Assembly: GCA_017510065.1 (NCBI GenBank)
Contig: JAFWOB010000207.1
Span: 1-46,886, forward strand
Length of the DNA: 46,886 bases
Origin: Parasporobacterium sp.
GTDB lineage: Bacteria; Bacillota; Clostridia; Lachnospirales; Lachnospiraceae
Direction of reading: 5' to 3'
Shown: positions 8,260 to 41,935 of the stretch, piece after piece
Layout: the number at the start of each line of letters is the position of its first letter
Position numbering within the stretch: position 1 is the stretch's first letter
Program-made: the position numbers and the translations under genes
Notes under the pieces: model-generated
Seen by the model: only the letters and a program-made list of their open reading frames with translations
What the model was told of the DNA's origin: nothing
Databases searched by the model: none

Positions 8260-8289
8260 TTTCTTCTGCAAACTATATGGTTACAGCAG

Positions 8290-8322
8290 CCGGGCGGATC
8301 TTCGGATCCGCCCGGTTTTTTT
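8290..8322 (+). terminator. intrinsic terminator of butyrate kinase
   Basis: An 11-bp perfect stem (8290-8300 with 8305-8315), TTCG tetraloop and a run of seven T (8316-8322), 31 bp past the stop codon. Confidence 0.93.
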
Positions 8323-8466
8323 GTCACGCTTGCTGCCTGGTTCGTGTTTCTTCTGCACCTTGCATATCTTAAGTGTCTGCGCTATAGTATTCATGCACAT
8401 CAATCGATACATGATCCAATGGATCATTCTTTATTAATCCTGCCCGTTCGATGGCACAGTAGTTTT

Positions 8467-8707
8467 CATGTAAATCAGGAGGTTTTTTAGTTTTACATGA
8501 AGATTTGAAGCGGTTTTTCATGTAGATTTTTCTTTTTTGTTTTTTTACATGAAAATTTCTTTGTTTTTTTCATGTATTTTTTCGGAACTTGTTTTTTTAC
8601 ATGAAAATCAACCCGATTTTTTCATGTATTTTTACATTTCTTTTATTTTTACATGATTTTTACCCGAAATATATCATGTATTTTTTTAAAAACCTTTTTT
8701 CTACATG
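8467..8707. repeat. array 1: ten alternating CATGTA/TACATG sites, exact 27/25-bp spacing
   Basis: Sites start at 8467, 8494, 8519, 8546, 8571, 8598, 8623, 8650, 8675 and 8702, alternately CATGTA and TACATG. Intervals are 27, 25, 27, 25, 27, 25, 27, 25, 27. Each unit is 52 bp: site, 21-bp T-rich spacer, inverted site, 19-bp spacer. Flanking T4-6 and A3-4 let several pairs form stems of about 10 bp with a 21-nt U-rich loop. The gene-free stretch 8260-8763 holds only the buk terminator and this array. The last site is 56 bp before the ATG of the nuclease-like gene. It is not CRISPR: the repeats are six bases long, orientations alternate, and there are no cas genes. Confidence 0.9.
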
Positions 8708-8763
8708 ACTCACGACAAATCACTTAAAAAATGAAATTCATTCAAACAAGAACAGGAGGACAT

Positions 8764-9564
8764 ATGGCACAGGAGATAACATCAAAACTGATATCAGATA
8801 TGAAAACATGGAGTAAAGAGATGGATGCTATTGCAATGCGATTGAAAAATGCTCCGGAGGGATCGCTCAATATAAGCTATCAAAATAATCAGCCCATCTA
8901 TTACCATTTGACAAAGACAGGCGGCATGACACAAAGAACCTACATCCGGAAGAAGGACCTGGATCTGATCCGGAAGCTGGCACAGAAAAAATACGACCGT
9001 GCGCTCCGCCGGGTTCTTCTGAAACAGATCCGCGCCATTGACAGATTTCTGAAAGACTATGATCCCCCGGCGATCCGGGACATCTGCAAAAGAATGCCCG
9101 ATGACCTGCGGCAGATGATACGGACGCCATTTTGGGATGACGACACTTATGTCAGGCAATGGCTTTCTGTAACGTACCCTGCCGCCCCATTCAAGGAAGG
9201 AGCTCCCGAATACTATACCGCCCGGGGCGAGCGGGTCCGCTCCAAGACGGAAAAGATCATTGCCGATACACTCTATTATGCAGGGATCCCATACCGCTAC
9301 GAATATCCTCTGCAGTTGAAAGACGGAAGGATCTTCCGGCCGGATTTTATCATTCTCAACAAACGCACAAGGAAAGAATATATCCTGGAGCATTTCGGAA
9401 TGATGGACGATCCCGATTACTGCAGCAGCGCCATTGAGAAACTCTCCATCTATATGCAGAACGGCATTTTCCCCGGAGACCAGCTGGTACTGACCTTTGA
9501 AAGCAGCAGCCATCCGTTCTCCACAAACGATCTGTCAGGGCTGATCCCGCATTATTTTATGTAA
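8764..9564 (+). CDS. PD-(D/E)XK nuclease-fold protein of unknown function
   Basis: A 266-residue protein. The N-terminal half is basic and helical, with a KKYDRALRRVLLKQIRAIDRFLKDY segment spanning about 75-99. The C-terminal part has the order of a restriction-endonuclease-like core: RSKTEKIIADTL (Glu163), YRYEYPL (Glu180), FRPDFIIL (Asp194), then EYILEHFGMMDD (Glu209, His210) in the position of the (D/E)xK motif, with His for the usual Lys. It resembles a conserved hypothetical family I recall from gut Firmicutes; this could not be verified. The frame opens at 8731, but the ATG at 8764 has AGGAGGA at ideal distance. Array 1 ends just upstream. It converges with, and overlaps by 8 bp, the next small gene. 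Confidence 0.7.
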   Translation: MAQEITSKLISDMKTWSKEMDAIAMRLKNAPEGSLNISYQNNQPIYYHLTKTGGMTQRTYIRKKDLDLIRKLAQKKYDRALRRVLLKQIRAIDRFLKDYDPPAIRDICKRMPDDLRQMIRTPFWDDDTYVRQWLSVTYPAAPFKEGAPEYYTARGERVRSKTEKIIADTLYYAGIPYRYEYPLQLKDGRIFRPDFIILNKRTRKEYILEHFGMMDDPDYCSSAIEKLSIYMQNGIFPGDQLVLTFESSSHPFSTNDLSGLIPHYFM

Positions 9565-33609: not shown

Positions 33610-33698
33610 TCAGCGGATCCGATGTTTATACAAAGTGTAAAAAGAGAGCCTTGATTTTCCTTTTTTATCTGAGGTGAAAGGTCTGCCTCCTTCCTATT

Positions 33699-33939
33699 CA
33701 TGCGAAAAACATAGTGACTGATTTTCGCATGATTGTTTTTGCTGAATTTTCATGCGTATTTTGTTTTTTTATTATTTCGCACTATTTTTTAGGCGGTTTT
33801 TTCATGCGTTTTTTACATTTCTGTTTTTTCGCATGAAAAAAACAGATAAATTATCATGTGAAATATTAGTTTTTTATTTTTCACATGAAAAAATGCTTCC
33901 AATTATCATGTGAAAATTACATTTTTGCTTTTTCGCATG
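33699..33939. repeat. array 2: ten alternating CATGCG/CATGTG-type sites, same 27/25-bp spacing
   Basis: Sites start at 33699, 33726, 33751, 33778, 33803, 33830, 33855, 33882, 33907 and 33934: intervals 27, 25, 27, 25... exactly as in array 1, and the same number of sites and total length (241 bp). Forward sites are CATGCG (three) then CATGTG (two). Inverted sites are CGCATG, CGCACT (degenerate), CGCATG, CACATG and CGCATG. The last pair CATGTG/CGCATG is compatible only through a G-U pair. The gene-free stretch 33496-34059 holds this array, the ligase promoter and leader hairpin, and the liv terminator. There is no nuclease-like gene here. Confidence 0.9.
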
Positions 33940-34000
33940 AAAACAGCCGTAATCTTTACCTTCTATCCAGCAACAAATCGGAAATAATCGGACAGTATGA

Positions 34001-39160: not shown

Positions 39161-41935
39161 TCAATCTCCCAGATCAAACAGTCCATCCTCTTGTGCCGGC
39201 TCAGAGGACTCTTCCGCAGAAGAATCGGTCTCATTTTCCTCTGCCTCAATTCCCTCTGATTCTTCTTCTGCAGGCTGCGTTTCGGATTCCTGCAGATAAG
39301 CGCTCACGATCGCATTGCCCCAGGTGATATTGTCAGCGATCGCATACCCCTTCAGATCGGCTGTATAAAAATCAAAATACACGTTGGAATAGATGGGGAT
39401 CATCGGAAGATGTTCATTGATCAGTTCCTGGAACAGAACCCATTTCTGCATGTATTCCAGTACTTCGCCGGGCTTCGTTTCCCGCATATCCATTGCCTGC
39501 ACATAAATGCTGCCGTAATCCCGGTAAAGCTCGATGAAACTGTTGTAAATATCTATGTAGCTGTTGATCATCTGCAGGCGGAGCATCTCCGGATCCGGCT
39601 CCTCCGCATTGTCTGATTCTTCAGGATCTTCCTCTTCCGGAGCATAGATCCTGACCATGGCAGCTTCTGTGAGCTCCCTTATGATCTGCTCTGTTTCCGA
39701 AACAACTTCTTCCGTCTCTGCAGCTGCGGGATCCTGTAACTCCTGTGGTTCCAGCCACGCCTTTACATAGGCATTGGCATTGCTTTCTGTATGAGATGCT
39801 GCCAGGGACAGTTCCTGCTCCAGCAAAGATGCGGCTTCCGCTGACCTGGTTCCCTTGAGCTTAGAACGGTCAAGGAAAACAAAGCCGCCTGAAATAGCTG
39901 CACTGCTCAGTTCTGTCTGCCGGGGAGCATATTCCGCAAACAGGCCTTCCGGCTCGAAAAGAACATCAAAGTTGCTTCCCAGATAGAACATGTCGACATC
40001 TTCCGGACGAACGTGCTCCCAATCAGCGTCTTCGGGCGCAGCATTTTCCGGCTCGGTTTCTTCTTCAGCAATCTCCGGCTCGGTTTCTTCCTCTGCAGCA
40101 ATCTCCGGAAGGCTGTCGGTTTCGGATTCCTCCGCTTCCTCTTCGTCATCATCCCCTGTTTCCAGCTGCTCATAATACAGCTCCAGCAGCTTTTCCATGG
40201 GAAGAGGAAGCAATGTCATGTGAATGCCCACCTTCTCCAGGTTGGGGATCAGCAGTTCTTCGAACGTTTTCTGCATACGGTTTCCTGCCGGATAAGCCAT
40301 GGTAAGATCCAGCACGACGCCGTTTCGCTCCCGGATCCCGTCTTCATTGAGGGTCCAGCCGTCTTCTTCCAGCAGGGTACGCGCATATTCAAGATTCAGA
40401 TTATACTCCGTCAGATTATCCAGATTGACCTTTTCCCATGCAGCCTGCTCTGCTTCATCGGCCGCCTGGGCTGCAGCATCATCCTCTGCTTCCGGGGTGT
40501 TCTTTCTGGGGGGCTCCAGATTCCGGATGGCCAGTCTGTACATCCACTGTCCGATTCCATAATATCCGTCAGTACGCAGACCGAAATTGCCGGTATAATC
40601 CTCCATGACCTCGTCCCGGTTCATGCACCAGGCGATGGCTTTCCTTACAGATGCGCAGGCTGACGTCTCCCGGATCCTGGAGAAACTGATAAATGTCTGT
40701 CCGGTGCGGGCATAGTTGCTGTAGCTGATCTTCCTGTCAGCTACCCGCTCCAGTCCGTCCTGAATGGTTTCCGAATCCGTTACCTTATTCAGAAGGCCGG
40801 TGTCGCCATTTTCCAGTTCATCCATCATGTCCTCATTGGCCAGACAATGATAGGTCAGTGTTTCCAGTACCAGAGAACGTTCCGGATCATAGCCTTTATA
40901 ATAGATGTTTCTCTCAAATTCCGCTGCTTCCCCGTCCCAGGATGTGAGAACATAAGGGCCGCTCACAACAGATGGATGGGACAGGTAGCCGGTTTCCGGA
41001 TCCAGTATGGTTTCGGCAAGCAGCTGCGTGGTAAAGCGGGGCTCTTCGTCCAGCGGGTTCTGCGGTTCTGCAGCTGTTCCCGGAAGTTCCGCTTCTGTTT
41101 CTGCTTCCGCAAGCTCCGCTTCTGCTTCCCCGGGTTCCTGCTCTTCAGACTCTTCTTCAGATTCTTCCGGCTCTTCCCAGTCAGGATCATTGGCCAGGTA
41201 TACGCCATAGCCGTCATCAAACACCCGAACCCCCGGAGCGATCTGGCGGATTGGGAAAGGAACGCAGCTTAAAAGTCCCATTTCGTAGAAGAACGGCAGG
41301 GCATCGTGCTTTACGATCACCATCATGGAATCGTCCGTCAGCACCCTCAGTCCGGTCAGATACGGAAGCTCACCGTCCTTGTATTCCGGGAATCCTGCGA
41401 TCCAGCTTAGATCCATCGGCGTCACTCCCAGGCCTCCGATCTCCTCGGAACACAGGAGCAGCCAGGTAAATGCATAATCCCAGGCGGTGATCCGGGTTCC
41501 GTCGGAAAAATACAGATCGTCATACAGATTCAGCAGATAGGTCCGGTCGCCTTCTTCATTTTCCATGACCGAAATGCCGCTTACCACGGATGGATCCGTA
41601 ACGAACATTCCTTCCGATTCGTTCCAGGTAACCAGGTTGCAGCCCTGCAGCAGAGCCTGCACATCCAGATCGCTGGTGTTGCGGCCAAACAGGTCCGCAA
41701 AGAAATTACCGGAAAGATGGGTGGTAGAAGCGACTGTAAGATGCTGAGGGATTTCCTCAGCATCTTCCTGTGCGTCTTCCTGGGCCTCTTCCGGCTGCCC
41801 CTGCGTATCTGACAGCTGCGGTTCCTCCGAAAAAGCGATTTCCTCCGAAGGCTCGCCGGCGGCAGTCATCACAAAAGAGGCGGCCAGCATCATGATCATA
41901 AACACTGTAGAGAGTATTCTGATTTTCTTTTTCAT
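39161..41935 (-). CDS. large SBP_bac_5-like extracellular protein with acidic insertions
   Basis: A 924-residue protein with an N-terminal signal peptide (MKKKIRILSTVFMIMMLAAS, cleavage near 26) and no lipobox cysteine. The body resembles the peptide/nickel family of binding proteins (SBP_bac_5): LLNLYDDLYFSDGTRITAWDYAFTW near 130-155, GPYVLTSWDG near 315, ASVRKAIAWCMNRDEVM near 430 and a late VYFDFYTADLKGYAI. It is interrupted by at least three Glu-rich low-complexity stretches (about 45-62, 255-285, 615-655) and ends in an acidic tail, and is far longer than the usual 500-600 residues. It is 32 bp behind the sortase-fusion gene and probably in the pilus operon. Ligand unknown. Confidence 0.72.
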   Translation of the reverse strand: MKKKIRILSTVFMIMMLAASFVMTAAGEPSEEIAFSEEPQLSDTQGQPEEAQEDAQEDAEEIPQHLTVASTTHLSGNFFADLFGRNTSDLDVQALLQGCNLVTWNESEGMFVTDPSVVSGISVMENEEGDRTYLLNLYDDLYFSDGTRITAWDYAFTWLLLCSEEIGGLGVTPMDLSWIAGFPEYKDGELPYLTGLRVLTDDSMMVIVKHDALPFFYEMGLLSCVPFPIRQIAPGVRVFDDGYGVYLANDPDWEEPEESEEESEEQEPGEAEAELAEAETEAELPGTAAEPQNPLDEEPRFTTQLLAETILDPETGYLSHPSVVSGPYVLTSWDGEAAEFERNIYYKGYDPERSLVLETLTYHCLANEDMMDELENGDTGLLNKVTDSETIQDGLERVADRKISYSNYARTGQTFISFSRIRETSACASVRKAIAWCMNRDEVMEDYTGNFGLRTDGYYGIGQWMYRLAIRNLEPPRKNTPEAEDDAAAQAADEAEQAAWEKVNLDNLTEYNLNLEYARTLLEEDGWTLNEDGIRERNGVVLDLTMAYPAGNRMQKTFEELLIPNLEKVGIHMTLLPLPMEKLLELYYEQLETGDDDEEEAEESETDSLPEIAAEEETEPEIAEEETEPENAAPEDADWEHVRPEDVDMFYLGSNFDVLFEPEGLFAEYAPRQTELSSAAISGGFVFLDRSKLKGTRSAEAASLLEQELSLAASHTESNANAYVKAWLEPQELQDPAAAETEEVVSETEQIIRELTEAAMVRIYAPEEEDPEESDNAEEPDPEMLRLQMINSYIDIYNSFIELYRDYGSIYVQAMDMRETKPGEVLEYMQKWVLFQELINEHLPMIPIYSNVYFDFYTADLKGYAIADNITWGNAIVSAYLQESETQPAEEESEGIEAEENETDSSAEESSEPAQEDGLFDLGD

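Follow-up and report, generated by a model that had tools for sequence, protein, structure and literature searches.

Closest described systems and the arrays studied

The BOX elements of streptococci are modular intergenic arrays in which the number of units is variable. In the REP and REPIN-RAYT systems, including the BIMEs, a gene lies beside inverted repeats whose copies are dispersed and alternate in orientation, as described in PMC2817692. In the TIGR-Tas systems (PMC12045711), one effector gene is accompanied by an array on its upstream side, its downstream side or both; two repeats alternate in the array, and the spacers are diverse sequences of 9 nt. The subject of this work is an array of inverted sites at positions 33699–33939 of a 46,886-nt stretch of Parasporobacterium sp. 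DNA (the whole stretch is called the window). It is named array 2, the sister array of the same window being array 1. Judging by their association in genomes, arrays of this kind and a family of PD-(D/E)XK-like proteins appear to form a linked system. The arrays are probably double-stranded DNA binding sites for the protein of this Lachnospiraceae family, and copies of them would have spread through the genome.

Compared to REPIN-RAYT, the behaviour is alike: in both cases a gene adjoins inverted repeats of its own core, copies are dispersed and the orientation alternates, and with the arrays, too, the presence of the core may track that of the gene. The enzymes are different: the array-linked one is PD-(D/E)XK-like and that of REPIN-RAYT is a Y1 HUH transposase (PF01797), which was not found together with the arrays. 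In addition, the sites measure about 7 bp and their units come close to whole turns of DNA, unlike the REP palindromes of 20–40 bp (PMC3733652), and the array-linked family has several paralogs per genome. TIGR-Tas shares with the arrays the one effector gene, the position of the array upstream and/or downstream, the two alternating repeats and their variation between loci. The alternating sites described here are, unlike those repeats, mutual reverse complements, with spacers that are AT-rich or near-identical instead of diverse, and, in a comparison with sequence profiles only, the Pfam families listed at E 0.1 for 15 family members include no Nop model. So, the linked system, as read from its sequences, resembles REP-RAYT in behaviour, lacks its defining enzyme, and is set apart from TIGR-Tas by the lack of a Nop-domain match. 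With BOX elements the arrays have in common that they are modular, intergenic and variable in unit number; shared end sequences in some G001 arrays (see below for genomes) hinted at a BOX-like element, but these ends did not prove consistent, and an association with a protein family is a new feature. CRISPR was rejected, as the sites alternate in orientation instead of forming direct repeats with diverse spacers, and no cas model was found among 24 Pfam-scanned array neighbours of the window's genome. No description of such an array-protein system was found in the open PubMed Central (PMC) literature among the titles and abstracts of the matches listed.

Architecture and distribution of the arrays

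The hexamers of array 2 start at 33699, 33726, 33751, 33778, 33803, 33830, 33855, 33882, 33907 and 33934, i.e., at alternating intervals of 27 and 25 bp (29 and 23 bp between CATG cores), the unit being 52 bp. The site at 33778 reads CGCACT and keeps its phase. The arm classes, named after the dinucleotide YR of the site consensus TCATGYR, are by unit CG/CG, CG/CG, CG/CG, TG/TG and TG/CG. An earlier note on this DNA had described the ten sites and their ruler, the degenerate site in phase, and arm changes that are mirrored in the opposite arm with one G-U-compatible pair; all of this was recovered. It had also pointed to an equal ruler with a different recognition sequence in the sister array, and indeed every site of array 1 (8467–8707) is TCATGTA, on an identical ruler. 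The pattern of array 2 is real and chance is excluded.

The window's genome (G000; 3.47 Mb, 242 contigs) was compared with others that are mostly draft metagenome-assembled genomes (MAGs). Thirteen arrays were found in G000. A pattern of four cores, allowing up to 2 mismatches, gave 49 forward matches in it versus 1 for the reversed control; one of the 49 (contig C22) looks like a chance match inside a coding sequence. A search of 61 genomes, that of the window among them, found the four-site pattern in 3, all of one genus (Parasporobacterium, classed in Lachnospiraceae), and was absent from 11 of 14 congeneric genomes; the other two array genomes are named G001 and G012. A scan of genome contigs for the exact four-site pattern, from which the window's own genome was possibly left out, yielded 30 stretches, all in the Parasporobacterium MAGs RGIG4354 and RGIG2565. 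The arrays read were 7 to 23 per genome, about 30 of them in two Parasporobacterium MAGs besides the 13 of G000. The sites are flanked by A/T-rich tracts. Ten sites, a number that the earlier note had stressed as shared by both arrays, is the commonest in the genome, where 10 of the 13 arrays consist of five units, yet it is no rule: the arrays of the three genomes have 2–8 units. Lone single units were seen once each in G008, G010 and G013. A phage origin was rejected: viral contigs contained one exact three-site match, taken as chance, with no array of two or more units at that locus.

Array 2 is intergenic, between a gene for a branched-chain amino-acid permease and one for an AMP-binding enzyme, with no family gene directly adjoining. 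Both neighbouring genes were called in 32 of 45 array entries (a total that counts duplicates and split arrays), the settings being tandem (18), convergent (8) and divergent (6). The 24 Pfam-scanned G000 neighbours (gyrA, carB, an amidohydrolase, transporters and kinases among them) showed no common function. The check, proposed in that note, of whether arm types pair with particular genes gave no tie to neighbouring genes except the family gene itself.

Arrays beside genes of the protein family

Array 1 is located between a terminator-like hairpin and a family gene, its end lying 55 bp before the gene. Because the hairpin precedes the array, array 1 is placed in the start region of the gene, whose product is proposed, from its sequence context, as the reader of the TCATGYR arrays.

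The surroundings of family genes were surveyed at 70 loci, 60 of which had readable upstream stretches. A 7-mer repeated at least 6 times (both strands) within 500 bp upstream was present at 23 of the 60 genes versus 3 of 111 tiles located 0.9–1.4 kb away (Fisher p 1.4e-9), and downstream at 6 of 67 (p 0.083). Tiles were used because a control made of regions upstream of other open reading frames was contaminated, many loci having been chosen for their arrays (20 of 255 with at least 7 copies); in a first tile control, 0 of 320 had at least 7 copies and 3 of 320 had 6. The cores upstream of 30 family loci included TGGTCAT (ruler 25/27), CATGGCA (27/27), CCATGTA (27/27), GGCCCGA (23/29), TAGTCCA (29/35) and more. 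The same core stood on both sides of the gene in L138, L151, L156 and L161, and only upstream in L135 and at the window gene. Of the G001 paralogs, one adjoins a TA array and another a CG array. The latter (L071, 1087–1812) has a C-terminus that cannot be aligned to the family, and is possibly broken or an assembly error. The claim of an array family in which every array has a factor of its own as reader is thus supported by association only: paralogs often appear with their own core and fixed ruler adjoining.

Unit lengths were taken automatically from 40 of 44 stretches with at least 5 sites, in place of an earlier by-eye list of 37. They gather at 41–42, 52–54, 62–64, 73–75 and 83 bp, with four outside these clusters (30, 36, 45 and 86), and lie near multiples of 10.5 bp (R 0.83, n = 40). 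The distinct lengths cluster near multiples of 10.3–10.7 bp (p 0.001 versus uniform), and R is equally high at 11, so the lengths do not fix the turn. Their closeness to multiples of about 10.5 bp indicates double-stranded DNA.

The array-linked protein family

The family comprises stand-alone Lachnospiraceae proteins of about 265 aa, with a predicted N-terminal alpha-beta-alpha part and a C-terminal PD-(D/E)XK-like domain, often with several paralogs per genome. Of 397 genomes sampled from the bacterial family, 125 contain a match. Among 15 members, the C-terminus matched PADLOC PDC-S68 in every case, and seven matched HEAT_CxxC_PD-DEXK (best 1.6e-7; window protein 7.6e-7), which argues for homology to described members of the PD-(D/E)XK nuclease superfamily. 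The residues E163, D194 and E209 of the window protein are invariant among the 15, and H210, which follows E209, is nearly so. The label "PD-(D/E)XK-like" is used because the canonical lysine, expected two residues on, is lacking; variants without it are known. No convincing Pfam match was obtained among the 15 (best E 0.0037, one member), nor any convincing PDB relative by sequence. PDC-S68 and plasmid homologs annotated as AAA ATPase or RecD/RecQ-like helicase have the homologous C-terminal domain in larger proteins, whereas the array-linked family is stand-alone, with its own N-terminal part and often an adjacent array.

Two other observations concern these domains. On viral contigs (L169, 1–7313), a 1206-aa helicase-like protein ends, by eye, in the same nuclease-like domain and adjoins a gene resembling, also by eye, a restriction-enzyme R subunit. 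In two distant genomes (L188 in G207, L189 in G384), short frames with one stop each match the N-terminal part only (residues 5–100).

Relation between core and protein

It was predicted that a second core should be dispersed where its gene occurs. A search for TGGTCAT arrays, using the ruler that this core has beside the G002 gene, gave hits on four contigs in G002 and on four in G005, of which one per genome rests on a single match; the remaining 12 of the 14 genus genomes gave no hit. Dispersal of this core was thus confined to the two genomes in which its gene had been observed. The two family proteins are sisters in the tree (100/100); the G005 gene is at a contig end, its own array being out of view. 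As to TCATGYR, arrays were present in 3 of 14 genus genomes and a close family gene in two of those, the third, G012, being an incomplete MAG (79% complete) that lacks a close match to the gene beside TA arrays. In G000 and G001, where a family gene adjoins a TA array, the TA class accounts for 37 of 122 and 114 of 208 sites, respectively; in the seven G012 arrays counted, it accounts for 0 of 70.

Over all pairs, core similarity and protein identity were related with Mantel r 0.128 (p 0.007, n 39) for automatic cores and r 0.175 (p 0.0002, n 40) for hand-assigned cores. The hand-assigned set includes one ortholog pair of 98% identity, and the automatic set, without it, is the weaker. The correlation is weak and comes mainly from pairs of at least 50% identity.

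Presence, absence and divergence at single loci

Array 2 and its G012 counterpart differ at 2 of 173 spacer positions and at 0 site positions, while G001 has no array at the permease/AMP-binding locus. In that intergenic region of G001 (L083, about 1210–1400) a different repeat of about 34 bp was seen by eye in two copies. Between gyrB and gyrA an array is present in G000 and G012, and G001 has none, with 11 nt between the genes. Four G001 arrays are homologous unit by unit in differing flanks, although a stretch of about 50 bp at one side is common to two of these. The gyrB–gyrA locus and these four arrays speak for movement of arrays.

A different situation was found on comparing L031 (G000) with L069 (G012). 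The right flanks are 97% identical over 605 bp and the left ones 96% over 85 bp, falling to 76% further left. All ten sites differ in class (TA versus CG), so that YR differs at 20 of 20 positions and CATG at 0 of 40, and the spacers differ at 60 of 173 positions. Because this 65% spacer identity exceeds the maximum of 60% reached by 45 pairs of other G000 arrays, the two arrays look homologous, yet far more diverged than their flanks.

Proposed explanation and alternatives

In the explanation that we consider probable, with the arrays as double-stranded DNA sites of the family proteins, each protein would bind co-operatively to the sites of its own array, all on one side of the helix, and would in this way control its own gene from the adjacent array. 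Arrays would be copied and spread as whole blocks, perhaps because the protein cuts DNA and another copy serves in the repair, and array 2 would be such a copy, without a role for its neighbouring genes. Three observations limit this explanation: many family genes are without an array by the 7-mer method, a family homolog in a phage record is without one, and L136, with core CATGGC, is placed by the tree, with weak support, among TCATG proteins. More tentatively, and with rather less than even confidence, these may be a new class of repeat system, in which PD-(D/E)XK-like proteins, each paired with an array of its own whose inverted sites are in phase with the helix, seed chromosomal copies of that array by cleavage and repair, and in which protein and array specificity change together, down to the concerted switch of ten sites at one locus. 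If true, there would be a second origin of dispersed intergenic repeats beside RAYT, unrelated in its enzyme, and nature would supply many paralogs of a DNA-binding protein, each encoded next to its own sites, the sequence specificity being readable from genomes alone.

The earlier note had considered arrays evolving as paired RNA stems; its hairpin or dyad reading was to be dropped if arm changes in a larger set were uncorrelated between the halves of a unit. Arm classes were tabulated in 43 arrays (duplicates L062 and L065 left out). As many as 27 of them mix YR dinucleotides, and 16 are pure (9 TA, 7 CG) versus 0.4 expected. In the mixed arrays, both arms have the same class in 70 of 131 units, while shuffling sites within arrays gives 69.0 ± 3.9, and neighbouring units agree in 51 of 104 cases versus 55.5 expected. 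Covariation within units is therefore absent once array composition is allowed for, and the mirrored changes of array 2 are due to the strong class agreement within arrays. CG and TA are not clean separate specificities, because most arrays mix YR dinucleotides. That the arrays are transcribed hairpins (guide, antitoxin or attenuator RNA) would agree with those mirrored arms and with an RNA folding of either strand of array 2, and of the plus strand of array 1, that is far better than in shuffles (z −7.8 to −8.0). Such folding is as expected of any inverted-repeat array, and the arm agreement at shuffle level, the unit lengths close to whole DNA turns, the occurrence of convergent, tandem and divergent settings, and the absence from the window of Rfam matches at gathering scores make RNA hairpins quite improbable.

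The sites could also be ordinary operators, with the protein as regulator of the neighbouring genes. Their position mainly upstream of the family gene fits autoregulation, but the dispersed G000 arrays flank unrelated genes, a quarter of the settings called are convergent, and array 2 lies upstream of the sole promoter-like site on the strand of the downstream gene (such sites being no commoner than in shuffles), so we regard operators as unlikely. A role in chromosome organization, with the protein bridging or wrapping dispersed arrays, would account for the phasing, the number of arrays per genome and the AT-rich spacers. It is at odds with the conservation of acidic nuclease residues, with the lack of arrays at single loci in a relative, and with the absence of the four-site pattern in most congeneric genomes, unlike an essential system, and appears improbable. 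Least credible of all, to the point of rejection, is that the arrays are BIME/REP elements moved by a Y1 (HUH) transposase. They are alternately inverted, intergenic and dispersed, and a RAYT-like gene does exist in G000 (L131, 1123–1866, contig C199; named by eye and from a weak PF01797 match). This gene was seen in 1 of the 14 genus genomes, not in the array-richest, G001, and it has beside it one short inverted TCATG pair and no array; PF01797 matches occurred in 5 of the 14, none of them G012, an incomplete MAG.

Features of the window

The features of both array loci are collected in Table 1.

Table 1. Coordinates of the arrays and of the elements adjoining array 1 in the window.
Feature	Position	Strand	Description
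Terminator-like hairpin	8288–8317	+	Ahead of array 1
Array 1	8466–8708		Five 52-bp units, ten TCATGTA / TACATGA sites
Array-linked protein gene	8764–9564	+	266 aa; predicted N-terminal helix, three strands, long helix; C-terminal PD-(D/E)XK-like domain
Array 2	33698–33940		Five 52-bp units, ten alternating TCATGYR / YRCATGA sites, CG/TG class

Tandem repeats of 27 bp were also observed at 40038–40108 and 41066–41125, inside an open reading frame of 924 aa on the minus strand (39161–41935).
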